A stretch of DNA of 31,819 bases, taken from IMG/VR virus record IMGVR_UViG_3300047562_001735, positions 1 to 31,819 of that record; one strand, written 5' to 3'. The notes beneath the pieces were generated by a model, which did not search any database, had not been told where the DNA came from, and saw nothing but the letters and a program-made list of their open reading frames with translations. The position numbers and the translations under genes are program-made. The DNA comes from a virus. Below, in pieces: positions 959-26,362 of the stretch (positions within the stretch are counted from its first letter, which is position 1; each line of letters opens with the position of its first letter).

Positions 959-973
959 ATCTATATTTACCCT

Positions 974-1453: not shown

Positions 1454-1457
1454 CTTT

Positions 1458-1949: not shown

Positions 1950-1951
1950 TC

Positions 1952-4309: not shown

Positions 4310-4318
4310 CTTTTAATC

Positions 4319-6316: not shown

Positions 6317-8114
6317 GTTGGTTATTTGTATCTTGAACTGTTAGTCCGTTGTCCATGTTATCTTTACCTAGTGGGAATCTACCACGTAGGTCTGGTAATT
6401 TAAATGTTGCAGGGTTAATACCTGTACCAAATGTTGTACCAATAACATTGTATAAATCGTTATAACTTGCAATCGGAACTTCTGATCCATCACATAACAA
6501 ATATCCTGCTGGTGCACTATTACCCGCATAAGGTAAAATACCTCCCACAGGAACGATTGCCGCCGATGCAAAGAAGTTACCAAATGTGATTTTCTTTAAA
6601 CCTTGACCATCTCTATGAAGCAATAACAAGTCATCTGGTTGTGTATCTGTATCTTCTGTTTGATCGGTAATAGCATCTTGTGTTAGTGTTACATTGAATG
6701 TTTTTGTTGTACCACCTGTTTGTCCATCGAATGAAAATCCTGTTGTGTCAGCAACATGGCCACCAACTTTAAATACTGTCGAAGCAACCAATCTATCTGC
6801 TGTACCGTTAACGTTACCATTAACATCACCAATAACTGTTCCTACCAAACGTCCTGTAAACACTTCCGAGTAAACATTAGAAAATCTTCTGGTGCCGCCG
6901 CCATCGCCTGGATCACCACCAATGGTTAAATTATTATTTGTTGTTGGAAGTATAGCAATACCGCCTCCGCCACCAATTTCTCCTACTACTAAGTGACCAT
7001 CAAATGCCGCATTACCACCAATGTGCAATCCTCCTGCAATGCCAACACCACCAGCAACTTTTAATGCACCCGTTGTGCCTGCTGTTAGTGAGTTATCAAC
7101 CGCTGTTGTTGACGATACTTGTAGTGTGCTTGAAAAATGTCCAGCACCAGTAACATCTAAATCAACCGTCGGTGCAATGTTATTAATACCAACACGCTTG
7201 TTTGTTCCGTCAATACGCATAACAGTTTTAACAACTTTATCAACATTTGGAAATACTTTAAAGTCGATGTTACCGTCAACGGAGTTATTTTTAATAACAG
7301 AGTTATTAGAAGCAATTTCTAGGTTGAAAATTTGGTTTGCACCAATTGTTAATCCACCATCATTACGAATGAACAACTGTCCGTCAGTTGTATCTGTAAT
7401 ATCACTTCTTAAAAAATTGTTTGCATTTACAACTTCAACCGCAGGCTGTGTTACGTTAAGTGAATCTGCTTTAGTTGCTGTTGCATGAAGTTTGTTAAGA
7501 ACAATACCATTGCCATTAAAGTCTGTTGCCGAAACGTTAATTCCAGGATATAGTTCTGAAAATCCTTCAATAACCTGTCTTGGAATAAATTGATCTTTTG
7601 AAATAATTGTTACAACTTTGTCTGCAACATAATTTTTAATAACAGTGTGTGTTACACCTTTAGTGTCAACAACTTCTTCTGCCTGAGCACCTGATTGTAA
7701 CCCGCCTGCAAAGTTAGGTCCTACTAATTGAAATTGTGCACCAGTGTGAAGATAAAGTTGATTGTTGGTCGTGTCTACCCAAACATCTCCTTTGATCGGA
7801 TTGCTTGGTTCGATTGCTTCAACATGAACTCCGCCTGCTGGCCTCCAGTTACTTGCACCAGCGGTTGAGTCATTAATTTTTAATCTGTTAGTACCACTGT
7901 CATACCATAACTGTCCTTCAATTGGATTGTTAGGCGGAGTGCTGTTTGCAAAATTCTCTAGTATGTGTACAAAGTTTTCAGCAATCGCTTGACCATAACT
8001 TGGTTCATTACGACCAAGTAGTGTCAATGACGTATCAGAAGTATTTCTACTATTGTCATCGATAGTAATCGGTGTCTTTTGTACTAGATTTGAAAAATTT
8101 ACCGTATACGCCAT
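6180..8114 (-). CDS. Tail-fibre-like protein, paralogue 1, with tail-collar tip; C-terminus frameshifted
   Basis: The uninterrupted frame encodes 644 residues starting MAYTVNFSNL. It has the shared N-terminus SYGQAIAENFVHILENFA and GQLWYD (about 42-80), then KGDVWVDTTNNQLYLHTG and LVGPNF. Later come LHATATKADSL, GGLTIGANQ, glycine-rich shaft repeats, and GRLVGTVIGDVNGNVNG. Residues about 518-585 are a phage tail-collar domain: GGILPYAGNSAPAGYLLCDG, then FKLPDLRGRFPLGKDN. After QDTNNQ the reading frame leaves the family sequence, and the final 45 or so residues are an out-of-frame product. The other frame continues GRVSDTNAQNIGGTGGNE and ends NPYMTLNYIIRAGE at a TAA at 6127-6129. Restoring one base gives 662 residues and a stop that overlaps the next ATG. 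It starts 2 bp after the preceding gene's stop. Confidence 0.82.
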   Translation of the reverse strand: MAYTVNFSNLVQKTPITIDDNSRNTSDTSLTLLGRNEPSYGQAIAENFVHILENFANSTPPNNPIEGQLWYDSGTNRLKINDSTAGASNWRPAGGVHVEAIEPSNPIKGDVWVDTTNNQLYLHTGAQFQLVGPNFAGGLQSGAQAEEVVDTKGVTHTVIKNYVADKVVTIISKDQFIPRQVIEGFSELYPGINVSATDFNGNGIVLNKLHATATKADSLNVTQPAVEVVNANNFLRSDITDTTDGQLFIRNDGGLTIGANQIFNLEIASNNSVIKNNSVDGNIDFKVFPNVDKVVKTVMRIDGTNKRVGINNIAPTVDLDVTGAGHFSSTLQVSSTTAVDNSLTAGTTGALKVAGGVGIAGGLHIGGNAAFDGHLVVGEIGGGGGIAILPTTNNNLTIGGDPGDGGGTRRFSNVYSEVFTGRLVGTVIGDVNGNVNGTADRLVASTVFKVGGHVADTTGFSFDGQTGGTTKTFNVTLTQDAITDQTEDTDTQPDDLLLLHRDGQGLKKITFGNFFASAAIVPVGGILPYAGNSAPAGYLLCDGSEVPIASYNDLYNVIGTTFGTGINPATFKLPDLRGRFPLGKDNMDNGLTVQDTNNQPVVFQTLTHKTLVVLAVMKLLLLQITQSEVEHKVLQVQVAVDINN

Positions 8115-8795: not shown

Positions 8796-11700
8796 TTATT
8801 CCTTAATATTTATTACAGGCAAACCAGAGGTCCTCTCTAGCAAGAATTTGGCTTGCGGTGTTTCCGATCTTTGTAGTGTGGCACCGTTTGACGCGGTTGC
8901 AACGCCTTGTTGATACCAAACTCTGCCCTGTTTTTGCACTACTTTTAGTTCTAATCCATCTTGAGGTTCATCTCTTAATGTTAATTTATAGTAACCTTTA
9001 GCAACACTATCGCCCACTGGCTCAATAGTAAACTCTGCTTGTTGTGTTACATCACTTGCTACACCTAAACTGTTTGTTTCATTACTGTCAAATGCAATTT
9101 CAACATTATGTTTCTTAATTGGATTTGCTATAACTGTCGGTTTTTGTAGTTTTCTACCACCTAAATATACCTCAACCTGGTCGTGTGCTCTTGCACCCGA
9201 AGATATATTAATAGTTTCTAGCACGTGAATCTTTCTACCATTTGGTAATCCTGGACGTATAGTACTTTGATATACGTTCAATGCATCAACATATGGAACT
9301 GTTTGATTAACTGATACATCTTCAACATACGTTCCTACAGGATAGTTATCTTTAACTCCTGTACCTAGTGTACCTCTTGTAATTTGTTTTAGAGTATTTC
9401 CTGATTTTTCATAGTATTCAATACGCTCTCTATCAACAAATATCACACCAGGTATTTTTCTTACCTTGCTAGGTTGAGGTAAGAAACTTGCATCTTCAAG
9501 TTTAATTTCGGTGCTGGTTTTTGTTAGTGCTTGTGTTAGCACTGTTCTATCCTGGGCACTAATTCTCTTGAAGTGTGTTCTGTTTAACATATCTTTAAAC
9601 ACATGATATCCAATACCATCATATGAAATGTCTTCACTGAATGTTGTTGCAACTACTCTGCTTGTTGGTAACTGTTCAATCTTATCATCAATGTAGAATG
9701 AAAGCCTATCATCAAGAACTTTATAATCTGTATCAGCAACTAAAGGTTTACCATCTAATTCAACCCAAACATAGTTTGTGTCTACAACTCTACGAGATAA
9801 TGTATAGTTTCCTCCAGTATTACCTGTAAACACTTCTTTTCTAATTAAGTTTGTATCATGATTTGTAAATGTTGTAACGTACACGGTATCATTATTATTA
9901 ATTACATACGGTGTTGAAGTGTCAATTGTTACAAAACTTGCACGACTGCTGTCTGCTTGGTTTTGTATTTTTACTTCATACTCATGATTTCTTAAAATTG
10001 TAATAGCAATAACATCACCCGCTTGTAGTGTTCCAGCGTAGAATGTTAATAAGTTTGTTGAAGTATCAAATTGATAGTCAGCGATAGCCGTCAACTTAAT
10101 ACCATTTTGATAAACTTCAAGTTCACCAATAGCAAGGTTAAATGTTGAATACTGTGGATCTTGACTTACAAGATAATCTAACGTTACTCCATTTGATACA
10201 TAGTAAACAGTATCAGGAGTTTTTAATCTTCGTGTTACACCTGTTAAATTATTTTTAACTTCAACAATTACCATAGCATGAAGTGGTGCAATGGTTGCCG
10301 GAACTTCGTTAAGAATAAATTCTTTAACTCCTGTGTATGTAAACACTTCTTTCTTAATTTCACTGTATGTTTTTTCAGACGAAGTTAATACTAATATTTG
10401 AATTCTGCTGTTAGCAGGTGCTGTATAAGAAATATCAACAATAACCGAAGCGTTGTTTGCTTTTCTTAAAACATAATTTTTAGCAACACCATTTACAGTT
10501 ACAAAAGCAGATTTAACATCATCATATTTTGCTGTTAATTCAAATTCGGTTGTTGAACCGTCGCCAACAAAGTTTGCTCTTTCAAGAATCTTGCTACCAG
10601 CAACGTTTAATGTTTGTATGGTTACGAATACATCTTGTGCAGGAACATTTGATAGTGTAACTGTTTTGTTTGCCCAGTTAATAGTATAATCAGTATCGTC
10701 AATATAAATTCCGTCAACAGTAACAAATATACTTGCTTCGGATCCAGGAATTTGATCAAATCCAAATACTGTTGTTGTACCATCACCTTGATATCTATTT
10801 GTCTTAATAATCGGTGATCCGTCAGCAGGTGAGTTGTAAACTTTCATGCTTAATGTATCAAACACCTGACCTGGAACAACTTCTTCCGGAGCATGACTTG
10901 TTTCTGGTGTAATGAATCCATCACCGTCTAAGGAAATATCTTCTGGTCGTGAACCTGTCGCTGTATTGAACTTACCATTGGTGGTTGTAAAACTACCACC
11001 ACTTAATAGTGTGTCAAGGTTGTTTACATCTGTTGGTACCAACGCACCGTCTGATGTATCTAATCTAAATACAACCAATACGCCATCAGCAGGTGTAACA
11101 TTTAAAACAAATGTTGCAGTATTGCCATCTCCAACAATAGTAGGTGTTACGTCAGGATCTTTTCTTACACCATCAAAATAAACATTAACATTTTGTCCTG
11201 CTTCAGGAGTATATGGTAATGTAAATGATGTTGTTGATCCATCTGCACGGAAAGCATAGTCTGTATTACTTCCCGAGAATGTGTCCCAACCATGACTGAA
11301 CCATGGTAGACCATCCCAACCCACGCTAACACCAAAGTCTAAACCTTGTATTTGTACTCCAGGATATTCAACACCTGTCATTAATTGTGCAGGATCTTTG
11401 CCTGGCATACCAGCGGTTGGTGAATAATAGTAATCAATTCTATCAGTTGCCTGCATTAGATTAATTGATTTTTTATATTTAATACTAACTATCGAACCAG
11501 CACCCGGAGGGTTCTTAAAGATAATGTATGCTTCTTTTGCTTTATATGTCCAATTTTCTTTTGTTGCAAGTACAATGTTATAACTTTCAATATATGCAGT
11601 TTCATTATTAACATCAATAGTAAACTGACGCTTGTCTAGTGTTGACAAATAAGTTAATTTAAATTTAACCTGTCCTGCTGTTGCTGTATATCTGTCAGTA

Positions 11701-14700
11701 AATGTTTCAGACTGAATTACTTTACTTGAATTCAATCTATCAAATTTCATTACAACTTTATTTGTTCTTACTTTTTTGTTTTCTAATATCGGCACCGCTC
11801 TTGCAGTTTTTGTAACAACATCTGTACCACCGCCACCAACAATACTAACAATAGGTGCAGTTGTGTATCCAGTACCTGATTTAATTAATCTAATTTCACG
11901 CACTTTTCCTCTTGCCACGTATGCTTCTGCTAGTGCATCTTCTTGAACGCCTGAAGGTAACTCATAATTTCCATTTGGTAATAACGGAGTTCCATAATAT
12001 TTTGGTCCAACAACATAAGGATACACAGCAACATCTGTATCTCTAGGATCAACTGTAATAAAGTATGCGTATGTGCCTTGTGGATATTCTGGTGTTGCAC
12101 AGAATCTTCCGTTATGCTCATCTAGGTCACCTAGACCAGCAACGTATTCATAATCTTCAATGTATCTTCCATTAGGAACAGAACCATCTGATCTTAAAGC
12201 ACTTTTTAATCTATAACTAGATGTCATTATCTTAATTGTACTAGGACCGTTAACGTTCTCAAAACCATATGGACCATAAATTGGGAATCCATCAAATGCA
12301 TAACCTAATATAGGAGAATGAACAGTGTCATCTTTTTCATACATTAATCGAGGATCACTGTGATAATGATAAACACCGTCCTCTTGTGGATGTCCTGATC
12401 CGTCATCAATACCTAATTCTTCATGACTTTCAACAGCATTGATTGTGTAACTAACACCATTTCTAATTTCTTTTTCTATTGCTCTAGGATCAAAAAATAC
12501 AACGCCGTTAACAGCAAGACCAATTGGTCCCATTGGTGTTGAAACTTTCTGCAATGCTTCTGCAGGAGTTCTTGTAATCTTAAAGATAAAATTCTGTCTT
12601 AAAACATTTGTTACACTAAAATTATGATCAGGCAAGTTGCTTGATTTAACATAGAAATCACTTACAGTATAATCTGTATCAACTAATGCCCTAAAAGGTG
12701 TTGTTTGTAAAATATTAGGTTTAGCAACACGGCCACCTGTAATTACAACCAATGGATTTTGATTATACCCTTCTCCTGCATCACTAATTTCAATATTACC
12801 TACAACATATTTGTAGTTGTCAAACCAATTTACATAAGGTTGTTCAGAAATTAATCTATGATTTTCGTCAAGAACTTCCCATTTTCCTGATTCCTTATCA
12901 AAGAAACCCGGAAGGTCAAAGTCTGTGCTACCAATACTTCCTTGCTCTAAGTTTTCATAAGAAGTAATAAATTCTCTAATGCTGGATCTATAAGGCTTAA
13001 CTTCTTTTAGATATTCCTCAATGTAGGTTGGTTCGTTTAGATTATAAGTTAATTTTTTGCTAAATCCACCAAGATTATTTTTAACATTTAAGAAACTTGT
13101 TTTGAACGCCCAGTCAATAAATTCTGATTCGCTAAGTGCATACTTAACTGCAATAAAGAATAACTTATTCCAATTATCACGTAGATCATCAACAAAAATA
13201 TTGTTTTGTATTACATCAATAATAATTCTTGTTTCAGCAATAGGTTGTTCATCGAACAAGTTAATATCAAAGTTTTCAGCACCAGCAAAACCAAAGTTTA
13301 ATAAACTATAATCGTATAGGTTTTCATTAAACTTAATTGTGCTTTTTGCTTTAAAGACTAAATTGTATTCATTATTAAACGATCCGCCCGATGCAACACG
13401 CTGAAGTATCATCTTATTGCCATCGCCAGCATTGTCAATTTGAACAAATTGTCCAACTGTTGTAACCAATGTATCTAATTGATATGGTGCTGATATTTTA
13501 TGGTTAATAATTGTATCAACATCAAAGTCTGCATTTTTGTAATCAACATATGACCAGAATCTAGATAGATCGTATGTCTGTGTATTTGTTCTGTTCCATA
13601 AACTTGTGTTAGCGTTCCACTCATACATTGTCCAGTAGTTGTTTGCTGTTTCATCTATATCAACAAGAACTTTAAATGGTCTTACTTTTATTTCCGCACT
13701 GTCATATCCACTGCCTGTTTTTACAATCTCAGTACCAATAACTTTACCGTCAGTATTGATTATTGACTTGATTCTTGCTCCGGAGCCGTTTCCTGTAATG
13801 GTAATTTCAGGAGCGATTTTATAACCATATCCTTGTTTAATAATATCAACGTTAACAATTCTACCATTTTTTAATACAGGCGATAATTGTGCTTGTATTA
13901 AGTCCTGTGTTCCAATATTTTCTAGATCGCTAAAATTATCAACCTTAACATCATACTTTCCTGATATAGCAGTTGGCTTAGGATCGTTTTGTCTTAGTTT
14001 ACTAATATCCTTTGTGTCAACGATTCTAGTTTTACTCATTACTTCGTTAACAAAAGTAATTACAATTTTAAGTGCATTGAGTCTATCTCTAAACATTGAC
14101 TGTCTAGGACGTATTTGTAAACCATATTTTCTTTGTTCAGGTAGATCAGCATCTGGTACCGCACTTCCTTGATCATCAAAGCCAACTAAACTGTCGTACA
14201 ATTTTTTAATCAACAAGTTGTTGTCAATTTTTGCTGTTTGATTTTGTCTTAATAACAGCCATTCATTATGTTCAGGTATATCAGTATTAACATTTGAATA
14301 ATGCACTGCTAAGAAAACATCTTCGTCTGTTAATGTTGTTTTAACATTTGCTAAACTTATGCTGTTCTTGCTTAATACCTGTAAACTCTTAATGCCGTAT
14401 GCTGTTGGATTAGAAATAATATTTGATACTTCAATAGCAGGAATTGTTCTTCCTTCGATATTCTCCGGAACAATTACAGTATTCTTAACCCAATAGTAAT
14501 AGCGTGTTTGGAAAGTATTAGTGGTTGCGTTGTACACACGTTTGATTGAAACTGTGTTGTCGTCATATTTTGCTTCGCCGCTAAAACCAGCCGCCACACC
14601 TTCGTTGGTGTCAGCAACAGTATTCCATTCACTTGGTAATAAATCGGTCGCTACCCACTCGTAGATGTCAATGCTTGACCCAGGGAACAATGCTCCCCAG

Positions 14701-17700
14701 TTGTTTGTTCTATATTCTGTATCACCTTGTTCATAATCAATATAACGAACAGAACTTAAATCCCACCATAATTCCCCTTCGTGTTCATCGGTCCAAGGTT
14801 TACCTTCATTAATATTAACTGATTGATCACTAACTGTGTATATTGCAGGATCAACGTTTGTTTTATAACTTAATTCTTTTTCTGCTAGATATGGAATTTT
14901 TCCTTTTACAGGATCAATAACTTCTAGATAATCTTTAACCTTGTTTGTTTTTGTGTTGTATGTGAATACATTTTTAATCTTATAAGGATCGGTAAATTCT
15001 GTTTCTTGTCTTAACAGGTTCCAACCTGCAGATTTTGTTTTTTGATAAACGTATAAACTTCCTGTTTGGAAATCTTGTACGTCTGCTTGTGGTGCACCAA
15101 CAAACACACTGTTTGTTCCATAGTCAATACCTGCACCAAAACCGTCTGCTGTTTTGATATCACTGCTGTTTAATTTTTGACCGAATATAAATTTAGTTCC
15201 AAGTTTTGTATATGTGTATACCGTACCTGAACCTACATTGTAATCAACTATTTTAGTTGTATTAGAATCAAAGGTTGTAGCAAAATCATTTTCACCACTG
15301 GTTTCAACATTTGGTGTAATATATTTGTCAAATGTTGTTATCTGTGTATTCTTTCCACCTTCGGCTTGTACAGCGAAAGATGTACCTTCGGCGTTTATAG
15401 AAATTACTGAACCAAATCTATCATTACCATCATTAAATGGTGCTGATACTTCTTGTTCCAAACTAAACAGATTGTTTACTGTTTTAAAGTAATAGACCAA
15501 TCCACTGTTAATATTGTTTACATCATTGCTAGGAGATCCAACAACCAACACAGTACCGTTACTGTTTAAATCAAGGCTAGCACCAAATCCATCACCTTTA
15601 AGCACCGTAGGAATAATAAGTGTGCCGCCGGTTGTGTATGTTCCTGTTGCTGTTACAGGATTCGTTAATAGGCTATCATGATATAGTGTAAACTCTTTTG
15701 CGTTTGAATTGCTAACCTTAACAAAATATTCTGCATTGTTTAATCCTGTTATACCTCCAACACCGGTAATTAAAATTCTCTGTCTATTAGTGAATCCATG
15801 ATTGTTTGTTGTTTGAATTCTTACAGGAGTTTCTGCGAACACTGCACTAATTGTTAGTTCTAATACTTCACCTGTGGTAGTTGCATCAATCGTTTGTGAT
15901 AAAACATATGTACCGTTGCTGTATTTGTAAATGTATACAGCACCTCTGTTGGCTGTTGAGTCATCTCCTGTTAATTCTGCATTAGGAGCACTCACAGCAA
16001 CAATGCTTAGATCTTTTGAAGCAACCATTCTTGCTCCAAAGTTATCATTGTTTACTCCGGAAACGCCTCTGCTGAACGAACTAGCAACTTGCCATTGCAA
16101 ACTACCATTTAATAATGTTTTTTCAAATACATAAACCTTACCTTTACCATTTGACCAACCTGGTGCTGATACTAACATTTTTGTATCTGTTAATGCTACC
16201 GCTGAACCAAAATGTGTTCCTGTGTTTGGTTCTGGTGATTGAATTATATATTCTGTTTCAAATAAGTTTGTTAATGAATTATATTTTAATAATTTAACAG
16301 CACCCTCTTCTACGTGTGTGCTAGGTGTGCTACCAATACTTCCAAACGAGAAGTTTGGTCTATTAGGATCTGTTGTTCTTTTGAAGTGACTTGCAAAAGG
16401 TGCACCAACAACTAAATGTTGATCTGTATTAGATAATGCTAAACTGTATCCAAAGCGAGGAACACCATCAACAATATTGTCTGAAGCATTATCACTAAGT
16501 GCAAACCCTTGAACCGCTTCAAGAGTTGAAATGTTTGTATTAAGTTTTCTTCTTAACACAACCACTTGACCTTCATCACCACCCTCTGGTGAACTTACCA
16601 CTATTAAACGTCCTTGATCACCACTAGTAATTGTGCTACCAAATTTCTGTCCTGGAATTAGGTTTACGCTTCCCCATTTGTTTCGTTGGAAAGCCAGCGT
16701 CTTTTCATATACACCCCAATTGCCAGTTGAATCATTGTCAGCAAATACCTTTGAACCGACCTCAAAGTTAATAACATCTTTTAAATTGTTAAGTTGATCA
16801 ATATTGTCGAGCCTTACTGAAATTAACTCTAACAATGTACCATTAGCACTGTCTTCTTGAATTTGCAATGATGTTAACTCTGTTTGAATTGTAAATGAAT
16901 ACGCTGATAAAACTTCTTTAACTTTGTAAACAGAATCTATGCTTGGATCAAAATCTTTAATAGAAATATATGCACCTTCTGTTAATGTGTGCGGTAGATC
17001 CGTGTATAATGTAACAACACCGTTAATGGTAACAGTAGGCTCTAGGTCCACTGTTCTAATAACTCGTGCATCTAGTCCTGTTAATCTTAGTACGTTCCAA
17101 TCCTTTGCTGGTGTTTTACCAATCCAAATAGTGTCGTTTTCTTTTAATGCATTTACAATTGGATTATTAAGTATATCTTCTTCATTGAAGATTGTCATTG
17201 TAACATCATCTAATCTTCCGTATCCTGCTGTTGGCAATTTTTGGAAGTAATTAGGTGTGTTAAATTCTATGGTTCTATCAATTATCGGCCACGGATTATT
17301 ATCGTATGTTGATGGTTTTACAGCAATGTCCTTGGACAATAGTTTAATAATATTAGAACTTGTTAGTGCAGTTGATCTTTGAGAAACAAAGTCAAATCCT
17401 TGCGGATTATCAACATTTAATCTTTCACTTAACGCAAACTCAATTTCTTTTACTGTTGAATTACTTCCTAAACTACCAACCTTAAATGCCCACTCTTCAT
17501 CAACGTTGATGTTAGTATCAACACCATCAATCTGTAAACGCTGAATTTTATCAATGGCATTTTTTGTTCCTTTTTCTTTAATAAATCCTTGATAGAATTT
17601 GTACTGTGCTGTTTCATCTTGAATTAAGTTATCAAGATATGTTCTCTTTTGATATCCAACAAGATGCTGTGCATATCTCGTTTGATTAACATCAAAGTTT

Positions 17701-20700
17701 TCGCTTTCTAAAGAATAAAAATCTTCAAATGAACTTGTTTTATAATCTAAGTTAGGTAATAGTTCAGCAACCGGTTTGGTTCCTAGATACAACCAGTCGT
17801 TAACATTAAATGAATCTGTGCCTGGAATAAATTTCTTAGCACTATAAAATGTACCTTTATGTTTTACAACTTCACCTAAATAGTAATCATTAAATGCAAG
17901 CCAATCATTAATTTGTGCTTCGTCGTATATAAAACCAGGGGAGAAAAAGTCTCCATCCCATTCACTTGTTTTAAACCCTAATAATTTAATTCTTTTTGCT
18001 CTATATCCTGCTTCTTGGTCGTACAGAATATCACCAAACTGTGACTTATCATCAAATACAATTACGTGTTCTTTTTGTACAACATTTAATTGCATAAAGA
18101 AAATACCGCTCTTGGTATCTCTTGGTCTTATTGTAAATGCACCATTTGCTCTCGTTGTAGTAAATTCTTCTCTTGGTAGAATATTACCGTTAGCAGTTAA
18201 AATTGTATAATCATAAAAACTGTTTAATACGTTATCAACTTGTCCAGCATTAAAATTAAACTTGATTCCATCAGCGAATGGTGCTATTGCAATAACACTT
18301 TCTACCGCCCATCCCTGTGTTGTCCAGAATAAAAATTCTTTACCAGAGAACTCCCAATTTTGTATATCAAACACTTCCGGAATATATTTGTCAAAAATAA
18401 ATCCTCTGCTTTCTAAATATTTTCCATAACCTAATATTAGATCATAAACATCCTGAACACGACTGTAAACTTTACCATAACCAACCTGTGTTACGGTTTG
18501 TTTCCAACGTGTGGCTTTTCTTACTTCGGCTCCGCCCGTCATAGGCAGTTGTGGTAATGAAGTAAATTTAGAAGCATCAAATTCTGCTGTGCTTGTATGC
18601 TGTTCTTTACAACGATAATATCTTCCACCCGCTTCAACAATTTGTCCTACGCCATAGAATTTATCCACCGTCCAAATAACATATTTGGCACTAACACCTC
18701 CTACGTTAACAACAGGATCATCTTTTTGATGTACTGGTTCAAATACTTTAAAGAAAGGTTTATATCTATCGTATCCTCTAATTTTATAACCGTCCTCAGT
18801 CCTTTCAATGATAATACCGCTAATTTTTTCATTGCGTACAGGGTTACTTGTTCTTAATTTTAATTCATAGTTTTCATTTGGTAAGAACACACTTGATTGT
18901 TTAGAATCAGGATTAGAACTTTCTAATAAAACTCTTAATCTATTTTTATTTGCAAATCCGCCTAATTTATAAACAAGATTCATACTGGTCTTGGTTACTT
19001 TGTTCCAGTAAATATCATCCGGTGACTTATCAGAAGATTTTAAGTATTCAACAATAAATGTATGATAACCTAATCCTATGTGTCTTACATTATTATAAAC
19101 AGAATCATGTATTCTAATATCAGTTAAATCTAAAATTTTTCCTGTTGGTTTATATAATACACTTCCGCTAGGTGCAATTTCAGTTTGTCCTACATCAAAC
19201 AATGAACCTAAGTATTGTGCTGGCTTCATTAATATTAATGCAACTTGTAGTGCAAACGGATACCATGAACTTGTTCTCCATGACGATTCTGCAGGATGCC
19301 AATCACCGAATTTAAAGTCATCGTCTAGTGTTCCATCAAAAATTTCTCCGACCATTCCTGCTCTGATTGGATCTTTTAATTCTCCGTATTCATTAACAGG
19401 AATAATTTTAGTTACGCCTGGTCTAGCATAAACAGGATTAATTTTTTCTCCGTCGGCATATCTAATTCTACCTAGTTCTATGTCATCCCAAAGTTTTTTA
19501 TTACCATCTGTGTATGGTGCCGCACCGTATTCAGTTTCCCACCAAGTTGGTTTTTCACTAAACCCTTGCATTTCCCATGGGTGACTGTGTGGACGATAAG
19601 TTCCATAAAATTTTGTATAAATTCCCTTCCAGTATCCAGGTAAAAACTCGCCTGTAAATGTATCACGTGTTTTCCCATAGTTTAGGGTAAACATATTTTC
19701 TTTGTTTGTGACATCATTTTTTGTTGAGTTAACACGATACACATCAACCCATGATCCAAAATCATTTGTTAATAATTCGTTAAATTCATCTAATGTGTAA
19801 TCACTCTTATTAAATGCTCCAGGAACATATGAATTAATATCAAATACCTTTGGATTGTACTGTGCTTTGATATTATTGTAAATTCTTTTTTCAAACTCTA
19901 ATAAAATGTCATCTCTAAAATCGTCGTAGGTAACATTTATAGATCCGTCATGACCTTTTATAACTCTGCGAGGCGTTACAAATGTGTCATCAACAAATAT
20001 TTCAGGCTTAAATTTAGGATACAAACCTAACTTGGTTGGTGTCTGCGGTACAATGTTACCCGTTGTATCATAATCACGAATAGTAACAACGTCACCAACA
20101 TTTACTGTTTTAATAATAGTAACACCGTTATCAAGTGCATCAAATGTATAGTCCTGACCATAATATAATTGTTCATCATTAATGTAGACATACACTGATC
20201 TATTCTGTAATGCTGTTGTATCAAAAGCAGAACTAAGACCAAATATCTGTTGTGTTGGTGCTACTTTTGTGTATTTTAACTCTGTAATTTTTCGACCAAA
20301 ACCAAGCATATCTGAGTAGAAATAAGGTGAATTTACTGGCTTGTCTAAAGACATACGATATAGAATTAAATCAATATCTTCCTTAACATTGCCAGAAAGT
20401 TCCATGCTCGATGCTTGAACTAGCAGTTGTTCTTTAAAGAAGTTATAATCTCTTGCTTGTTTTCTAATTGCTTTAACAATGTTATTTTCAAAGTCAACTA
20501 AACTAAAAATACTGTTTAGTATTGATCCACCGTGCTTAACATAACGCAATCCGTCAAAGTGTATATCCTTAACATCTCTAGCATTGTTTGGACCAAATGC
20601 CTTTCCAGAAATATTAACATTATTTTCAAAAATAGTTTTGAAGTGATCACTGATACTACCTAGCGTGAATGTTGTAAGGTCATTATTCTCAGCATTGTTT

Positions 20701-22955
20701 GTTAAGTTTAATGGTGCTTCATAAAAACCGTTGCTATTAGGAACACGATCAGTATAAATTTTTGTAACGGTTCTTGTGTTTAAAGAAATTGTATTTTTAA
20801 AAACAGCATAAACTGTATTTGCCAGATCGTCAATCTCAATGTCAAAGTCACCTGGTTTGTAAACTGTGTCATTAAACTCAATGGTAATTTCCATTGAATT
20901 TACATAATTCTTAATATTGTCTACACATAATAATTCAATTCTGTCAGTTTCTTCTGTAATATCGTTTAACTGAATAATTGCTTGTCTGGTCTTTTTAGTT
21001 GCTTTCTGCCAGCCACTTTGATATTCTTGTTGATTGTTTTCTTTGTAAACTTTAACATATCCACTTGCTGTGTCAACTGTTTTAATTGTTCCGTCTGCAG
21101 ACGTATAATCAAATGTGCTGTCGTCCCAATCAAATTCAAAAACAATATCACCAACGTTGGCGACGTTTTGATAACTTAATGGAAAACCTAAAATAGAGTC
21201 GTTGTTTCCTGATCCTACTTTATAACTTACAATCTCATTACCTGTAAATGTTGTACCATCATAGTCAGCAAAACTTAGACCATCTTTGTTAAACAATTCA
21301 AATGTTGGTGCTTGATTTAATTTTGTTTTTTGTTGCCCTGAAACCCAACCGGTTCCGTTATAGTACCAACTCTTTCCTTGATGAGTTGCACCGTCAATGG
21401 TTACAATATTATCTCCTGTCGCCGGGACATAAGTTTCAACAAGGTGTACTCTTTTTACTCCGTTGAACTCGACAAAATCAACAGTATAAACTTTACCCTT
21501 AACTGTGATATCTGTATCAGCATTGAATATAACTCTCATGCCTTTCTTTAATATCACTTCGTCAACATAATAACCAATAGAACCTTCAACATCACTCATT
21601 GCATCAACAGTTTTTGTATCAATAACATCAATGTTGTCAATACCTATTGATCCAAAGTTATGTAATTGTATATTTGGTTTAAATTCTATAATAGGTCTTT
21701 TAGCACGTTGGGTTTCGTCTAACACAATAGTTGTGTTATTATAAGTCGCCGCGGCTTCGATAGCATCTTTATGAATCCATCTATTATATCTTGACCAAGG
21801 ATTCTTATCTTGAGCACTTCTATTAATAGTGATGTATTCTGGTTTGGTTGGATAACTTTCAACATCGTCAAATGGTGTGTCATCGTATTCTTCAACATCA
21901 AATTCAAAGTCAAAATTTGAACTATAAAGTTCAGGAGTTTTTAATTCCTGCTCGTCAATTAATTTAATTTTATCTCCAACACCTTCAACATAAAAATTTT
22001 TATTTTTATAAGTGTCTGGAGTTACATCACCTTCAAATTTAACCTTTAAACCATTAGTAAACTTAACACCATTGGAAGATGTAAATTCTTTTTTACCTAA
22101 GATTTCAATATTAATGTTAAGTTCTAATTCATCTTCAGTATTTTTAATTTCGAATAATCCAACCATCGATTGGTGTTTGCCGCACTGATAATATAAAGTA
22201 TCTGGTGCACTTGACGGGACCGTAAATGTAACAACACCTTGTTCGACGCCATTATTTTGAATTCCTACATTGTATTGATCACCAGCACCTAGTGTTTTTG
22301 CTACTTTAATATAAAACGGATGACCCACAGAGTTAACATCAAATGCGTATGTCGCACCTCGATATAATGTAACAATAGGATTTTTGCTAAAGCCATTTGG
22401 TGTAAACACCCATGCCGCATTATTGTCGTTGGTTACTTGAAATGAACTTGTTGTTCCTTGCGGACTTCCTGACACTGTTACAGGACTAGGTCCGTCTGCT
22501 AACCAATAGTACTGACGATAGTTAACAAACTTATCAAAGTCGATAAGAGGATTCCATACATAGTAATCACTCTTTGTTAATCTATCTTGGTTAGTTGTTA
22601 TGCCATCAAAGAAATTAATTTGATTTAATAAGTCGTCGTAGGTTCCTACCCAATCAGTTCTATCATTGAAATCATCTCTAACAACAACAGATGGAAGAAA
22701 GTTATAACGTCTTCTGTTGTCAGTTAACTCAGGAACATAAACATCTGACGGTTTTGCATTTTTTGAATACCTTGATCCAACATAACCATTAAGGCGTTCT
22801 AAGTTTCCTTTAGAAATTAAATTATCAACCGTAGCACCAAGAAACTTTTTGTTTGCTTCTGTTCTAAAAAATAAAGGAAGAAGATCGGCACTATTTCTGT
22901 GCAAATCCCTGTTTTCTTTATCTACCGGTGTTTGACTATTTTCGCTGTATGCCAT
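8796..22955 (-). CDS. Giant multidomain virion structural protein (4719 aa)
   Basis: This protein sits directly after gp6, where T4 has wedge genes 7 and 8 and marine T4-like phages have very large structural proteins. Visible parts in order: N-terminal wedge-like region (1-155, DLLPLFFRTEANKKFLGATV); cupredoxin-like domain (about 165-275; H212, C258, H261, M264); helical segment (about 820-890); HDGSINVTYDDFRDDILLEF (about 1000); two aromatic CBM-like modules (about 1437-1470 and 1689-1722); seven-blade FG-GAP propeller (about 2095-2650); Gly-Tyr repeats (about 3030-3090, 3385-3410, 3680-3720); LKEVKPYRSSIREF (about 3320); YHYH domain (about 3455-3655); beta-sandwich repeats of GDGSTT type (about 3895-4150); and a C-terminal RGTLGTG module (about 4470-4555). 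The product would be an extended baseplate or fibre component that meets the cell surface. The ATG has TATAGGA just upstream and lies 13 bp after gp6. No frame breaks occur across 14 kb. VrlC-like is my best comparison, not proven. Confidence 0.85.
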   Translation of the reverse strand: MAYSENSQTPVDKENRDLHRNSADLLPLFFRTEANKKFLGATVDNLISKGNLERLNGYVGSRYSKNAKPSDVYVPELTDNRRRYNFLPSVVVRDDFNDRTDWVGTYDDLLNQINFFDGITTNQDRLTKSDYYVWNPLIDFDKFVNYRQYYWLADGPSPVTVSGSPQGTTSSFQVTNDNNAAWVFTPNGFSKNPIVTLYRGATYAFDVNSVGHPFYIKVAKTLGAGDQYNVGIQNNGVEQGVVTFTVPSSAPDTLYYQCGKHQSMVGLFEIKNTEDELELNINIEILGKKEFTSSNGVKFTNGLKVKFEGDVTPDTYKNKNFYVEGVGDKIKLIDEQELKTPELYSSNFDFEFDVEEYDDTPFDDVESYPTKPEYITINRSAQDKNPWSRYNRWIHKDAIEAAATYNNTTIVLDETQRAKRPIIEFKPNIQLHNFGSIGIDNIDVIDTKTVDAMSDVEGSIGYYVDEVILKKGMRVIFNADTDITVKGKVYTVDFVEFNGVKRVHLVETYVPATGDNIVTIDGATHQGKSWYYNGTGWVSGQQKTKLNQAPTFELFNKDGLSFADYDGTTFTGNEIVSYKVGSGNNDSILGFPLSYQNVANVGDIVFEFDWDDSTFDYTSADGTIKTVDTASGYVKVYKENNQQEYQSGWQKATKKTRQAIIQLNDITEETDRIELLCVDNIKNYVNSMEITIEFNDTVYKPGDFDIEIDDLANTVYAVFKNTISLNTRTVTKIYTDRVPNSNGFYEAPLNLTNNAENNDLTTFTLGSISDHFKTIFENNVNISGKAFGPNNARDVKDIHFDGLRYVKHGGSILNSIFSLVDFENNIVKAIRKQARDYNFFKEQLLVQASSMELSGNVKEDIDLILYRMSLDKPVNSPYFYSDMLGFGRKITELKYTKVAPTQQIFGLSSAFDTTALQNRSVYVYINDEQLYYGQDYTFDALDNGVTIIKTVNVGDVVTIRDYDTTGNIVPQTPTKLGLYPKFKPEIFVDDTFVTPRRVIKGHDGSINVTYDDFRDDILLEFEKRIYNNIKAQYNPKVFDINSYVPGAFNKSDYTLDEFNELLTNDFGSWVDVYRVNSTKNDVTNKENMFTLNYGKTRDTFTGEFLPGYWKGIYTKFYGTYRPHSHPWEMQGFSEKPTWWETEYGAAPYTDGNKKLWDDIELGRIRYADGEKINPVYARPGVTKIIPVNEYGELKDPIRAGMVGEIFDGTLDDDFKFGDWHPAESSWRTSSWYPFALQVALILMKPAQYLGSLFDVGQTEIAPSGSVLYKPTGKILDLTDIRIHDSVYNNVRHIGLGYHTFIVEYLKSSDKSPDDIYWNKVTKTSMNLVYKLGGFANKNRLRVLLESSNPDSKQSSVFLPNENYELKLRTSNPVRNEKISGIIIERTEDGYKIRGYDRYKPFFKVFEPVHQKDDPVVNVGGVSAKYVIWTVDKFYGVGQIVEAGGRYYRCKEQHTSTAEFDASKFTSLPQLPMTGGAEVRKATRWKQTVTQVGYGKVYSRVQDVYDLILGYGKYLESRGFIFDKYIPEVFDIQNWEFSGKEFLFWTTQGWAVESVIAIAPFADGIKFNFNAGQVDNVLNSFYDYTILTANGNILPREEFTTTRANGAFTIRPRDTKSGIFFMQLNVVQKEHVIVFDDKSQFGDILYDQEAGYRAKRIKLLGFKTSEWDGDFFSPGFIYDEAQINDWLAFNDYYLGEVVKHKGTFYSAKKFIPGTDSFNVNDWLYLGTKPVAELLPNLDYKTSSFEDFYSLESENFDVNQTRYAQHLVGYQKRTYLDNLIQDETAQYKFYQGFIKEKGTKNAIDKIQRLQIDGVDTNINVDEEWAFKVGSLGSNSTVKEIEFALSERLNVDNPQGFDFVSQRSTALTSSNIIKLLSKDIAVKPSTYDNNPWPIIDRTIEFNTPNYFQKLPTAGYGRLDDVTMTIFNEEDILNNPIVNALKENDTIWIGKTPAKDWNVLRLTGLDARVIRTVDLEPTVTINGVVTLYTDLPHTLTEGAYISIKDFDPSIDSVYKVKEVLSAYSFTIQTELTSLQIQEDSANGTLLELISVRLDNIDQLNNLKDVINFEVGSKVFADNDSTGNWGVYEKTLAFQRNKWGSVNLIPGQKFGSTITSGDQGRLIVVSSPEGGDEGQVVVLRRKLNTNISTLEAVQGFALSDNASDNIVDGVPRFGYSLALSNTDQHLVVGAPFASHFKRTTDPNRPNFSFGSIGSTPSTHVEEGAVKLLKYNSLTNLFETEYIIQSPEPNTGTHFGSAVALTDTKMLVSAPGWSNGKGKVYVFEKTLLNGSLQWQVASSFSRGVSGVNNDNFGARMVASKDLSIVAVSAPNAELTGDDSTANRGAVYIYKYSNGTYVLSQTIDATTTGEVLELTISAVFAETPVRIQTTNNHGFTNRQRILITGVGGITGLNNAEYFVKVSNSNAKEFTLYHDSLLTNPVTATGTYTTGGTLIIPTVLKGDGFGASLDLNSNGTVLVVGSPSNDVNNINSGLVYYFKTVNNLFSLEQEVSAPFNDGNDRFGSVISINAEGTSFAVQAEGGKNTQITTFDKYITPNVETSGENDFATTFDSNTTKIVDYNVGSGTVYTYTKLGTKFIFGQKLNSSDIKTADGFGAGIDYGTNSVFVGAPQADVQDFQTGSLYVYQKTKSAGWNLLRQETEFTDPYKIKNVFTYNTKTNKVKDYLEVIDPVKGKIPYLAEKELSYKTNVDPAIYTVSDQSVNINEGKPWTDEHEGELWWDLSSVRYIDYEQGDTEYRTNNWGALFPGSSIDIYEWVATDLLPSEWNTVADTNEGVAAGFSGEAKYDDNTVSIKRVYNATTNTFQTRYYYWVKNTVIVPENIEGRTIPAIEVSNIISNPTAYGIKSLQVLSKNSISLANVKTTLTDEDVFLAVHYSNVNTDIPEHNEWLLLRQNQTAKIDNNLLIKKLYDSLVGFDDQGSAVPDADLPEQRKYGLQIRPRQSMFRDRLNALKIVITFVNEVMSKTRIVDTKDISKLRQNDPKPTAISGKYDVKVDNFSDLENIGTQDLIQAQLSPVLKNGRIVNVDIIKQGYGYKIAPEITITGNGSGARIKSIINTDGKVIGTEIVKTGSGYDSAEIKVRPFKVLVDIDETANNYWTMYEWNANTSLWNRTNTQTYDLSRFWSYVDYKNADFDVDTIINHKISAPYQLDTLVTTVGQFVQIDNAGDGNKMILQRVASGGSFNNEYNLVFKAKSTIKFNENLYDYSLLNFGFAGAENFDINLFDEQPIAETRIIIDVIQNNIFVDDLRDNWNKLFFIAVKYALSESEFIDWAFKTSFLNVKNNLGGFSKKLTYNLNEPTYIEEYLKEVKPYRSSIREFITSYENLEQGSIGSTDFDLPGFFDKESGKWEVLDENHRLISEQPYVNWFDNYKYVVGNIEISDAGEGYNQNPLVVITGGRVAKPNILQTTPFRALVDTDYTVSDFYVKSSNLPDHNFSVTNVLRQNFIFKITRTPAEALQKVSTPMGPIGLAVNGVVFFDPRAIEKEIRNGVSYTINAVESHEELGIDDGSGHPQEDGVYHYHSDPRLMYEKDDTVHSPILGYAFDGFPIYGPYGFENVNGPSTIKIMTSSYRLKSALRSDGSVPNGRYIEDYEYVAGLGDLDEHNGRFCATPEYPQGTYAYFITVDPRDTDVAVYPYVVGPKYYGTPLLPNGNYELPSGVQEDALAEAYVARGKVREIRLIKSGTGYTTAPIVSIVGGGGTDVVTKTARAVPILENKKVRTNKVVMKFDRLNSSKVIQSETFTDRYTATAGQVKFKLTYLSTLDKRQFTIDVNNETAYIESYNIVLATKENWTYKAKEAYIIFKNPPGAGSIVSIKYKKSINLMQATDRIDYYYSPTAGMPGKDPAQLMTGVEYPGVQIQGLDFGVSVGWDGLPWFSHGWDTFSGSNTDYAFRADGSTTSFTLPYTPEAGQNVNVYFDGVRKDPDVTPTIVGDGNTATFVLNVTPADGVLVVFRLDTSDGALVPTDVNNLDTLLSGGSFTTTNGKFNTATGSRPEDISLDGDGFITPETSHAPEEVVPGQVFDTLSMKVYNSPADGSPIIKTNRYQGDGTTTVFGFDQIPGSEASIFVTVDGIYIDDTDYTINWANKTVTLSNVPAQDVFVTIQTLNVAGSKILERANFVGDGSTTEFELTAKYDDVKSAFVTVNGVAKNYVLRKANNASVIVDISYTAPANSRIQILVLTSSEKTYSEIKKEVFTYTGVKEFILNEVPATIAPLHAMVIVEVKNNLTGVTRRLKTPDTVYYVSNGVTLDYLVSQDPQYSTFNLAIGELEVYQNGIKLTAIADYQFDTSTNLLTFYAGTLQAGDVIAITILRNHEYEVKIQNQADSSRASFVTIDTSTPYVINNNDTVYVTTFTNHDTNLIRKEVFTGNTGGNYTLSRRVVDTNYVWVELDGKPLVADTDYKVLDDRLSFYIDDKIEQLPTSRVVATTFSEDISYDGIGYHVFKDMLNRTHFKRISAQDRTVLTQALTKTSTEIKLEDASFLPQPSKVRKIPGVIFVDRERIEYYEKSGNTLKQITRGTLGTGVKDNYPVGTYVEDVSVNQTVPYVDALNVYQSTIRPGLPNGRKIHVLETINISSGARAHDQVEVYLGGRKLQKPTVIANPIKKHNVEIAFDSNETNSLGVASDVTQQAEFTIEPVGDSVAKGYYKLTLRDEPQDGLELKVVQKQGRVWYQQGVATASNGATLQRSETPQAKFLLERTSGLPVINIKE
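8807..8814 (-). promoter_or_regulatory. Possible T4-type late promoter (AATAAATA)
   Basis: On the minus strand this reads AATAAATA, one base from the T4 late consensus TATAAATA. It sits about 16 bp before the ATG of the 224-residue gene and overlaps the last codons (VINIKE) of the giant gene. T4 late promoters consist of this single element with start a few bases downstream, so it could restart transcription after the 14-kb gene. In AT-rich DNA such an octamer arises easily by chance, so support is weak. Confidence 0.3.
15010..16660 (-). repeat. Seven FG-GAP (integrin-alpha-type) propeller blades inside the giant protein
   Basis: Seven FG-led blades are visible, with FG at about residues 2105, 2167, 2249, 2306, 2456, 2515 and 2606. 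Examples are QKFGSTITSGDQGRLIVVSS, PRFGYSLALSNTDQHLVVGA, THFGSAVALTDTKMLVSAPG and DGFGASLDLNSNGTVLVVGS. Each runs FGxx(I/L)xx, a turn, a hydrophobic strand ending in (A/S)P, and a G-x-V-Y-x(F/Y) strand. Seven is the number needed to close an integrin-alpha-type propeller. The long gap between blades 4 and 5 holds an insert of about 90 residues with HGFTNRQRILITGVGG and NAEYFVKV. The calcium loops (DxDxDG) of integrins are not evident. Confidence 0.8.
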
Positions 22956-22968
22956 TTCCTATACCTAA

Positions 22969-25668
22969 TTAACTAGTGCCAGAAGCAACCGAAACTCCGC
23001 CGGTTACTTGATCAACTGAAGTAACAATGCTACCAGATGCTTTTAAGTTAGATGCTGTTATGCTATCTATAACATCAACATTATCTACTGTTGCAGTGCT
23101 GATAAAAATTTCGTCCGATCTGCTAGAAATTTGAAACAGTGATCCAAAACTTTGATTGTTACTTCTTGGAACTATTACAAGGCTTGAAATGTTTGGAATC
23201 ATTTTAGTTTGTACATAAGTTGCAAGTTCTGTAAAATGGAAACTGTCACCAAACTCCCAGTTTTCAATATCAAAAAAGTCATTGATTGCTGAAACAACCT
23301 GCGACTTAATTTCGTTGTCACTTAGTGTTATTCCATCGCTCTTAACAACCTTAAATGTTGCTTGAAGTGCTGTTTCTGAGTCAGCACCAAAAAGCGATTT
23401 GTATTTTACGCTGTGAAAAATAATTTCATCGCTGATTGATTTAACTTTGTTTAATGATTCTTCAAATTGCACTCTTAACTGTTCTGTAGAAGGTGCTGAA
23501 GGTTTTGTGCCTGTGCCATTGATGTATGCTCTATAAGCATTGTCATATGACTCTGTTAATATGTAAAGATCGATTAGGTTTGTTTTAGAAGGATCAAGTC
23601 TTCTATCATTCTCAGCATTGTGAATGTATTGGAATCTAACGTTGTCTCTTCCTGGTTTAGCAGAATAATCTGTTTTTAAAACTAATGTACCTAATGTTGC
23701 ATTATATTGTTTAACAACATCTTCTGTTTGATCATAGAAGTAAAATAACTGTCCATCGCTATAAGAAGCAAGAATTACTTTTTCTTCTTTATCGAAAATT
23801 TCAAATTTAGAACTATCAACTTTAGTTGTGGTTGTATAATTTCCAACTTCTGTTGTTTGGAAAAACACAAATTTGTCTTTATATCCTCGAATATCAACAT
23901 TATTAGGTTTAACAATGTTTTCAAAACTATCAGGATCATCAATCATTCCGTCGTCATCTGAATCATAAAAATTAACTTTAACTTTGTTTGTTTCTTGATA
24001 TCCATCTGAATTTGTTACAGCACCAATAATTTCCCACTGAAAATCTTTTGATAGAATAGCATCCTGTACAGGATCTTCGTTCACCTTAAGAACTTTAACT
24101 TGGTCTTTAATTACTGCTCCGGTTTCGTTGTTAAATTTTTTCTTACCAATGTCAACATAAAACTGAATTAAATTTTCGCTTTCAAATCTGTAATCTAATC
24201 CTCTGTATGTAACTGTATAAGTTTCGCCGTCATTGGTGAACAGTACAAACCAACTTCTGTCTGCTTTGGTTCCTGTTAGATCTCCTTGGCGTTCTAAACT
24301 AAATCCGTCTTTTGTGTTTAGGTTAGAGTTTGCAATAATTTTCCACTCTAATGCGTTTTGATCATAGCGTATACCAAATGTTTTATAGTTAAACACCAAA
24401 TCAACAATTTCTGTTTCAATCGCTGTTGGAAGATCTGTAACAATATTTGGAATAACTTCGCTAGGTACCGCTAGTGAAGGAATATTTTCACTTAAAATAA
24501 TAGGTCCAGTATTGTCATCTAAATTACCTTTGCCGCCGTTAGAGCCGTCGCCAACAACAGTAATAACTTTTGCCCAAATGTATTCGCTTGTAAATTTTGA
24601 TCTTGTTGTTGTTAGTGTTCCGTTTGGTAGGAAATATCTTCCTGCAGGGGGAACAAACTTAATCATTGAATCTGCTTGAACATACTTAAAGTTATTTGAC
24701 GTAAACGAACCAATTGTAATAGGTGCATCATTTACATTGTTTCTAAAATAACCAGTGCTTGAAGTTGTTGATTGTGTTGAATGAACCCAATCAATGTTAA
24801 TACCCGATGTGCTTATTCTTGAAAACTTATCATAATAAAATGCTTTTGTTGGCAAACTAACAATAATTGGCTCAACTTGATTTCTTAAAACTCCTAGCAC
24901 GTCATTACGTGTTTGGAATGTAAATGTAAAATCGTTTTCAAAATCGTTTTTATAAATGATCCCATCATCAGCAACTAGATTAGTTGTTGAATATTTTCCT
25001 GTAGGATCCGCAATGTCATACTGTCTTGAAATTCCCGAACTTGCTCTGTTTACCGCTTTTGCTTTTACAATAGACTGGTTGCTTGTTAAAGGAAATGTAT
25101 TGTAGTCCTCACCTGTGATCATTCTGTTCTGTGTGTAGAATGCCTGTGGTGCATTTTGTCTAATTGAAGCAACTGTCTCTGTTGCGGCTGAATTTGTAAC
25201 AGTTGATTGTAATCCCATCTGTATCAATAGTGTATGTGACACACCTGCTTTGTTTACATAAGGAACTTCAATAACAATGTTTGATAGGTTGGTTGGTGAA
25301 ATTGTGTAAGACAATCCGTTAGATGTTCTATAATACAAACGGAAATCTCCTTTTGGTAAATCACCAAAACTGCCGTCGGCAAAATTTAGACTAATTTGAT
25401 CGTTGTCTCTTGTAACAACACTATAAATTGATCTTGTTTGTTGATTGACCGAATTAAAAATTACGTTACTACCATAAACGCTATCTAACTTCGTCCATAG
25501 TTTAGTATAGTTTCCGAATCTATCTAATTGCCATAACCAAACATCGGAGTTGTTAATGTTATCAACGTCAACATTAATAACTTCGTTAGCACTAGGATCT
25601 ACAACACTAAATCCCGAACTTTGTAGTGATCCTTGCTTAAAGTCAAAAAAGAATTCCCATTGAGTTTC
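22969..25668 (-). CDS. gp6: Baseplate wedge protein gp6, C-terminal part (frame-broken from its N-terminus)
   Basis: The frame is open from a stop at 25669-25671 down to 22969. It starts TQWEFFFDFKQGSLQSSGFS and continues VWLWQLDRFGNYTKLWTKL, then SIYSVVTRDNDQISLNFADG, FGDLPKGDFRLYYRTSNGL and the rest of the gp6 family body. No ATG or GTG exists in the upstream 110 codons; the first usable start is a TTG at 25338, which falls inside the conserved FRLYYRTSNG stretch, so it is not a real gene start. The stretch must therefore be read as a continuation of the N-terminal part at 26362-25643. gp6 forms the inner baseplate ring that carries the wedge conformational switch during contraction. The C-terminus (GSIVTSVDQVTGGVSVASG) lies 13 bp before the giant gene. 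The family assignment is firm; whether an intact gp6 is made from this exact sequence is doubtful. Confidence 0.85.
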   Translation of the reverse strand, partial: ETQWEFFFDFKQGSLQSSGFSVVDPSANEVINVDVDNINNSDVWLWQLDRFGNYTKLWTKLDSVYGSNVIFNSVNQQTRSIYSVVTRDNDQISLNFADGSFGDLPKGDFRLYYRTSNGLSYTISPTNLSNIVIEVPYVNKAGVSHTLLIQMGLQSTVTNSAATETVASIRQNAPQAFYTQNRMITGEDYNTFPLTSNQSIVKAKAVNRASSGISRQYDIADPTGKYSTTNLVADDGIIYKNDFENDFTFTFQTRNDVLGVLRNQVEPIIVSLPTKAFYYDKFSRISTSGINIDWVHSTQSTTSSTGYFRNNVNDAPITIGSFTSNNFKYVQADSMIKFVPPAGRYFLPNGTLTTTRSKFTSEYIWAKVITVVGDGSNGGKGNLDDNTGPIILSENIPSLAVPSEVIPNIVTDLPTAIETEIVDLVFNYKTFGIRYDQNALEWKIIANSNLNTKDGFSLERQGDLTGTKADRSWFVLFTNDGETYTVTYRGLDYRFESENLIQFYVDIGKKKFNNETGAVIKDQVKVLKVNEDPVQDAILSKDFQWEIIGAVTNSDGYQETNKVKVNFYDSDDDGMIDDPDSFENIVKPNNVDIRGYKDKFVFFQTTEVGNYTTTTKVDSSKFEIFDKEEKVILASYSDGQLFYFYDQTEDVVKQYNATLGTLVLKTDYSAKPGRDNVRFQYIHNAENDRRLDPSKTNLIDLYILTESYDNAYRAYINGTGTKPSAPSTEQLRVQFEESLNKVKSISDEIIFHSVKYKSLFGADSETALQATFKVVKSDGITLSDNEIKSQVVSAINDFFDIENWEFGDSFHFTELATYVQTKMIPNISSLVIVPRSNNQSFGSLFQISSRSDEIFISTATVDNVDVIDSITASNLKASGSIVTSVDQVTGGVSVASGTS

Positions 25669-26362
25669 CTAGCGTTGGAGTTTCTTCAACTATGTTTCCA
25701 TCAGTTATCCCTGAACTTACAAGTTCAAAATTCATTGATCTTCCTTGAATCGTTTTGCTAAACTGGAATAGTGGAACATCAGAGTTTGTAGTATTAAGTT
25801 TATATTGTTCTGTAATAATTCCGCCTACTACACCTGATTGATTTGGTTTTCCAATAACCATCTGTCCCGGCATGGCCGCATTAAGAATTGTTTGAAACTG
25901 TTCTAACCAATTGGTATTTGTTTCATCGTTCCAAGTAATAAATCTGTTTGATAATGTGATACCTAAACTGTCCTGCACAGGCTCTGATGTTTGAACACCA
26001 ACAACTTTTAAAAGGCCTGAAGCACCTTGGTTACGTTTAATATTGTATCCAACCAATCGTGCAAGTCTTAGTACAGACTCTTTTTTCTCTGCTAGTTCAA
26101 TAAAGTTTTCTCTAGCATTTAGATCAATTCTGTAAGATATACTCTGACCTAAGAATGCAATAAGGTCAATAAGGGCAAGGTACTCACTGGATTCAATATA
26201 ATCGTTAAAATCTTCTGGGTAGTTGTTACGTAGATAGTTTATCATAGTTCTACGTAGGGTAGGGAAGTCATAAGAAGTAAAGTCTGCATCCGTAAATGCA
26301 CGATAGATTTTACTCCAATCTTCGTTCGCTAATAGTGAGTTCTGTCTGTTAATACTTGCCAT
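25643..26362 (-). CDS. gp6: Baseplate wedge protein gp6, N-terminal part
   Basis: This 239-residue frame holds the conserved gp6 start: NEDWSKIYRAFTDADFTSYD, LRRTMINYLRNNYPEDFNDY, IESSEYLALIDLIAFLGQSI, SYRIDLNARENFIELAEKKE and SVLRLARLVGYNIKRNQGAS. The family protein is normally several hundred residues longer, but this frame ends at TGA (25645-25643) after EETPTLGNSMGILF. The missing remainder lies in the +1 frame at 25668-22969. The gene starts 33 bp after gp25 with AAAAGG about 11 bases before the ATG. In the baseplate, two gp6 copies per wedge link neighbouring wedges into the inner ring. The N-terminal identity is very clear; the break is discussed in the findings. Confidence 0.9.
   Translation of the reverse strand: MASINRQNSLLANEDWSKIYRAFTDADFTSYDFPTLRRTMINYLRNNYPEDFNDYIESSEYLALIDLIAFLGQSISYRIDLNARENFIELAEKKESVLRLARLVGYNIKRNQGASGLLKVVGVQTSEPVQDSLGITLSNRFITWNDETNTNWLEQFQTILNAAMPGQMVIGKPNQSGVVGGIITEQYKLNTTNSDVPLFQFSKTIQGRSMNFELVSSGITDGNIVEETPTLGNSMGILF

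Follow-up and report, generated by a model that had tools for sequence, protein, structure and literature searches.

A giant protein of 4719 aa encoded in the analysed window (the whole stretch of DNA, an IMG/VR virus record of 31,819 bases) carries a predicted seven-blade FG-GAP_2 propeller. Sequence profiles place this propeller in the turn of a conserved beta-hairpin, between the WGVYEK strand and the WNLLRQE strand. As far as the compared sequences indicate, the propeller is a trait kept across a phage lineage, with at least 102 members listed. We propose that it forms an exposed binding platform of the baseplate, with an integrin-type fold and without calcium cages, a reading that we regard as evenly balanced between right and wrong. 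The features concerned are as follows.

8796-22955, minus strand: giant propeller-bearing protein, 4719 aa (ORF; phrog_10938 match; adjoins gp25- and gp6-like genes)
16674-16808, minus strand: first half of the stem, aa 2050-2094, ending in the strand around NWGVYEK (propeller-less profile)
15006-16655, minus strand: seven-blade FG-GAP_2 propeller including the insert, aa 2101-2650 (Pfam, AlphaFold2 model, integrin matches)
16503-16655, minus strand: blade 1, aa 2101-2151 (FG at 2105; profile; model strands)
16239-16466, minus strand: blade 2, aa 2164-2239, with a long B-C loop (FG at 2168; profile; model strands)
16068-16223, minus strand: blade 3, aa 2245-2296 (FG at 2249; best Pfam repeat; profile; model strands)
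15888-16052, minus strand: blade 4, aa 2302-2356 (FG at 2306; profile; model strands)
15606-15869, minus strand: inserted module of 88 aa, aa 2363-2450, in the blade 4-5 loop (Pfam; alignment of 53)
15447-15599, minus strand: blade 5, aa 2453-2503 (FG at 2457; profile; model strands)
15171-15428, minus strand: blade 6, aa 2510-2595, with the TFD...TTFDxxST arm (FG at 2514; profile; model strands)
15006-15152, minus strand: blade 7, aa 2602-2650 (FG at 2606; profile; model strands)
14988-15038, minus strand: second half of the stem, aa 2640-2656, the strand around WNLLRQE (propeller-less profile, second match)
14001-14990, minus strand: conserved domain that follows the propeller, aa 2656-2985 (query for the family scans)

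Nine FG dipeptides occur in the propeller stretch, two of which (2204 and 2591) sit within blades 2 and 6 and are not blade starts. Six occurrences of the pattern FG-x(10-22)-[VA][GSA][AS]P were found in the giant protein, all within the 566-aa segment; 5000 shuffles of that segment gave a mean of 0.006 and a maximum of 1. Blade 6 is without the GAP half of the repeat pattern. The Pfam family FG-GAP_2 (PF14312), which had been suggested as an HMM check, was hit above its curated cut-off of 23 by both the whole protein (E 1.7e-17, 63.8 bits) and the propeller segment (E 1.4e-22, 80 bits), and it is matched in 50 of 53 aligned members. An earlier sequence-only reading had counted seven FG-led blades, and the seven repeat starts, the Pfam matches and the seven four-stranded units of the structural model bear out this count; the placement also held, with its limits shifted from 15010-16660 to 15006-16655.

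The AlphaFold2 model, for which an alignment of 53 family members was used as input, contains seven four-stranded units in a row (mean pLDDT 82, pTM 0.80), and the insert is the one poorly predicted part. In a Foldseek search against the PDB, the 44 top-ranked matches are all integrin alpha chains (E from 3.3e-13), with TM-scores of up to 0.68 when normalised by the target and only 0.48 when normalised by the query. Integrin alpha chains are also the top PDB matches of the alignment profile, led by alpha-4 (E 3.6e-18). FG-GAP proteins of giant viruses and phages are among the best matches in a viral library. The integrin-alpha kinship supposed from the sequence, for which structure prediction and a fold search had been proposed as checks, is thus supported by the seven predicted blades and by both searches of the PDB. 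The seven four-stranded sheets, together with near full-length integrin propeller matches, suggest that the ring is closed.

In integrins, calcium is held in the A-B loops of the propeller. The calcium motif DxDxDG was identified in none of the 53 aligned members, which extends to the family what had been remarked of the window propeller. A looser calcium-loop pattern was not commoner in these 53 members than in shuffles. The A-B loops have mean lengths of 3-6.5 residues and show little length variation.

Compared with six isolates, homology ends between approximately aa 1860 and 2000 and restarts near aa 2642-2666. At the propeller site, RaK2 has 87 residues versus approximately 670 in the window. 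A stem profile for which only members lacking FG-GAP hits were used matches the window twice, at aa 2028-2094 (E 1.2e-5) and in a hit ending at aa 2694 (E 1.8e-14), with the propeller between the two matches. The second hit begins loosely within blade 6, and the stem is its last part only. Split matches at E <0.1 were obtained for 64 of 105 propeller sequences. It is this split match around the propeller that places it in the hairpin turn. In propeller-less relatives, the hairpin is unbroken at the propeller site, from which the insertion point is known. The WNLLRQE stem strand doubles as the final strand of blade 7.

Single-sequence searches with the propeller or the insert retrieved almost no relatives, and the relatives were therefore reached via the conserved domain after the propeller, which was used to scan IMG/VR. 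With the best 80 matches taken per scan, at least 161 distinct members were retrieved, at least 151 of them with both flanks. Among the matches listed with both flanks, a propeller (counted as present when five or more blades were recognised) was found in 102 of 151, none in 41 and an apparently partial one in 8, proportions that are not population frequencies. Seven blades were recognised in 45 of the 102 listed propeller members, six in 41 and five in 16. Blade 2 is the lowest-scoring blade, and counts below seven are probably due mostly to missed weak blades. Other members contain different, unrelated material in the stretch before the hairpin. A by-eye assignment of the L245 slot as LamG-like was abandoned, being without Pfam support.

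A quick FastTree phylogeny of the conserved domain after the propeller requires two changes for propeller presence and absence. The propeller rows form one group of 117, with one propeller-less row inside. This topology is consistent with the propeller having been gained once and lost once; a single gain is the most economical interpretation but falls short of proof, because approximately 29% of the branches are open. The carrier phages are uncultured and are probably jumbo phages. Photosystem reaction-centre genes, a sign of cyanobacterial hosts, were found in none of four relatives, a weak result since all four are fragments.

The giant protein matches phrog_10938 with 1127 bits. In reading order, its gene is preceded by baseplate genes resembling gp5, gp25 and gp6, and the gene neighbourhood is common to the window and the jumbo phages Deifobo, Phosso and RaK2. 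The window protein thus combines the phrog_10938 body homology with a position after gp25 and gp6. Two homologs encoded at the corresponding position have been detected as virion proteins by mass spectrometry, gp245 of phAPEC6 (382 kDa) with 17 unique peptides (PMC7247149) and CBB_236 with 21 unique peptides (PMC5259590). Both loci were checked and encode sequence homologous to the window's giant protein. As no propeller is known in either homolog, these data assign the giant protein to the particle but do not do so for the propeller. Together with the gp25-gp6 block, they agree with the suggestion, made from the sequence, of a virion protein of the baseplate. The phrog_10938 family is classed as head and packaging; the gene order and neighbours of 8796-22955 instead indicate baseplate. 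Similarity to T4 gp7 was detected neither in the PDB with four body profiles of the giant protein nor in a model of its aa 701-1300, which gave no significant fold match, T4 gp7 included. The argument for a wedge protein at the gp7 position is therefore based on gene order. In cyano- and pelagimyophages, VrlC is said to replace gp7 (PMC7029224).

Several other features were observed in the giant protein and its surroundings. The segment at 22116-22508 (minus strand, aa 150-280) has a cupredoxin-like reading with C-x2-H-x3-M near the segment end, and it matches phrog_677. A YHYH domain (PF14240, E 2e-51) is encoded at 12048-12584 (minus strand, aa 3458-3636); in a segment-by-segment comparison, its coverage is limited to the closest relatives of the window. 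A metal-dependent hydrolase role has been proposed for YHYH (PMC7824862). A CBM_5_12-like, chitin-binding-type module at 18585-18674 (minus strand, aa 1428-1457) is under the Pfam cut-off and is backed by a family profile compared with solved chitin-binding domains. The gp6-like gene (22969-26362, minus strand) is in two pieces, with phrog_10646 aa 1-237 in 25643-26362 and positions 359-847 in 22969-25338. Its missing middle lies in another frame. The gene breaks near 25645, at six consecutive T, through either an assembly indel or frameshifting. Four adjacent tail genes (2-8114, minus strand) have a common N-terminal segment, LLGRN...ENFVHLLENFA...GQLWYD, and are divergent afterwards.

The propeller has diverged more than most of the protein. 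Compared with L012, the nearest relative, it is 58% identical, and the other segments are 63-83% identical. Over 43 distant members, it has the lowest identity of the well-covered segments (26.8%), with 27.7% in the segment just before the propeller and 33-45% in the other well-covered segments. Strand columns are conserved above loops. Big extra segments occur in B-C loops, D-A loops and the blade-3 C-D loop; A-B loops have none. Because the large blade-3 inserts fall in the aligned C-D loop, a single integrin-like upper face bearing every insert became less likely. One exception among the diverging loops is the blade-6 arm TFD...TTFDxxST (aa 2541-2567), in which D2563 is identical in 53 of 53 members.

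A module of about 90 residues had been noticed between blades 4 and 5, and it was delimited here as 88 aa (aa 2363-2450). Among the 53 aligned members, it was found in the window phage only. The same place in six close relatives is a short empty loop. For example, the L015 loop reads QTIDATTVDTLSKSDLFG, and the window has QTIDATTTG, the insert and then VLKGDGFG. The Pfam family E1_FCCH scores 22.5 bits on the segment, under its cut-off of 29.5, and 31.4 bits on the whole protein from two stretches, weakly suggesting that the module is an E1_FCCH-like beta domain. Compared with the domain that directly precedes the propeller, the insert showed no significant similarity. An iterated insert profile was discarded, as it had drifted to an unrelated C-terminal domain.

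Sequence comparison and the model show that, in this phage group, a giant protein of the baseplate block took up a seven-blade FG-GAP_2 propeller where a conserved beta-hairpin turns. The following role is proposed for it. Because of this insertion in the turn, the propeller is placed on a two-strand stem, on which it may stand out from the baseplate. The strands would preserve the fold, and the loops would diverge and accept extra modules. Before tail contraction, the propeller may touch the host surface (protein or glycan), possibly other tail parts too, by binding without integrin-type calcium cages. The blade-6 arm would be a constant contact or docking site, and the remaining loops, including the 88-aa module of the window, would vary the outer contacts.

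Host or glycan binding by such a putative platform is plausible. Within the propeller of the window itself, Pfam identified no carbohydrate-binding domain. A receptor- or glycan-binding head would be compatible with the rapid divergence and the variable loop lengths; tail-protein docking fits nearly as well, and rapid divergence can equally reflect weak constraint. Propellers are common protein-docking platforms, and the propeller may be an internal docking module that anchors tail fibres or neighbouring baseplate proteins and never meets the host, which we consider a serious possibility while leaning against it. That the blade-6 arm is strongly conserved and holds an invariant Asp fits contact with an unvarying partner in the virion. 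The whole lineage keeps the propeller, seven is the commonest blade count among the matches listed, and several different tail-fibre-like proteins encoded adjacently would need attachment. However, identity that is low relative to most flanks, and large loop insertions, one of them unique to the window phage, are less expected of a fixed docking surface.

The propeller would be a dispensable decoration, adding bulk or stability without specific binding, if its absence from 41 of the 151 listed relatives, in which the neighbouring stretch is filled with unrelated material, were given most weight. This is unlikely, as only approximately one loss occurred among at least 102 listed propeller members and the blade-6 arm is conserved. 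Some phage tail propellers are enzymes, such as the K1F endosialidase (cited in PMC10607447), and weak Pfam NANM and Lactonase hits were obtained in one member each. Nevertheless, integrin-type matches predominate and no conserved catalytic set was seen, just the one conserved Asp-bearing arm, which makes an enzyme, e.g. a tail glycan hydrolase or lyase, very improbable. An exposed binding platform remains our preferred reading. In a more specific form, by analogy with the integrin head, it would be an adhesion platform with a constant calcium-free propeller, a blade-6 docking arm and swappable loop modules; we regard this form as rather doubtful. Under that analogy, loop modules such as the window-only 88-aa insert would resemble the integrin I domain in retuning host contact.

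The I domain of some integrins sits between blades 2 and 3. The phage propeller resembles that of integrin alpha in its seven FG-GAP repeats and in having a module inserted in an inter-blade loop. Unlike integrin alpha, it is without DxDxDG calcium loops, has a weakly E1_FCCH-like module in the blade 4-5 loop rather than an I domain, and is embedded in a phage tail protein. Integrin thigh, calf and membrane parts were not found by Pfam on the whole giant protein. The phage propeller is not an integrin.

Phage FG-GAP or integrin-like proteins are already known as separate genes (PMC11242549), and some of these stand-alone proteins are annotated as virion or tail proteins. Cyanophage S-TIM5 gp054, Atu_ph07 hemagglutinin, AP-J-162 gp213 and Phosso XYS97267.1 likewise have FG-GAP or integrin-like propellers, but they are encoded by separate genes and are unfused to the giant protein. 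In Sinorhizobium phage Phosso (L010:2614-12537), at least 19 FG-GAP_2 repeats lie in the separate giant protein XYS97267.1, and the Phosso homolog of the window's giant protein has no FG-GAP_2 repeats. The giant virion proteins (phrog_10938) of RaK2-like, PA5oct-like and Atu_ph07-like jumbo phages are alike in body and gene order; in the isolates examined, however, they are without the propeller, and the site is unbroken or differently filled. Jumbo phage CBB also has propeller proteins, of the Kelch type, one of which (CBB_552) was found in the virion (PMC5259590), but these belong to another repeat family and are separate proteins. Other propeller types occur in phage tails (PMC5259590, PMC10607447). 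In the part of the literature covered, no report was found of an FG-GAP propeller in a phage baseplate or a giant baseplate-block protein. The window propeller resembles FG-GAP_2 (PF14312) proteins in its Pfam match over the cut-off and differs from them in being built mid-way into a giant baseplate-block protein, within a hairpin. Across the lineage, it exemplifies a putative integrin-alpha-type propeller incorporated into the tail machinery of a phage, and its insertion point is mapped. With propeller-less relatives as natural controls, both the acquisition of binding domains by baseplate proteins and the way in which an FG-GAP propeller works without calcium cages become testable.
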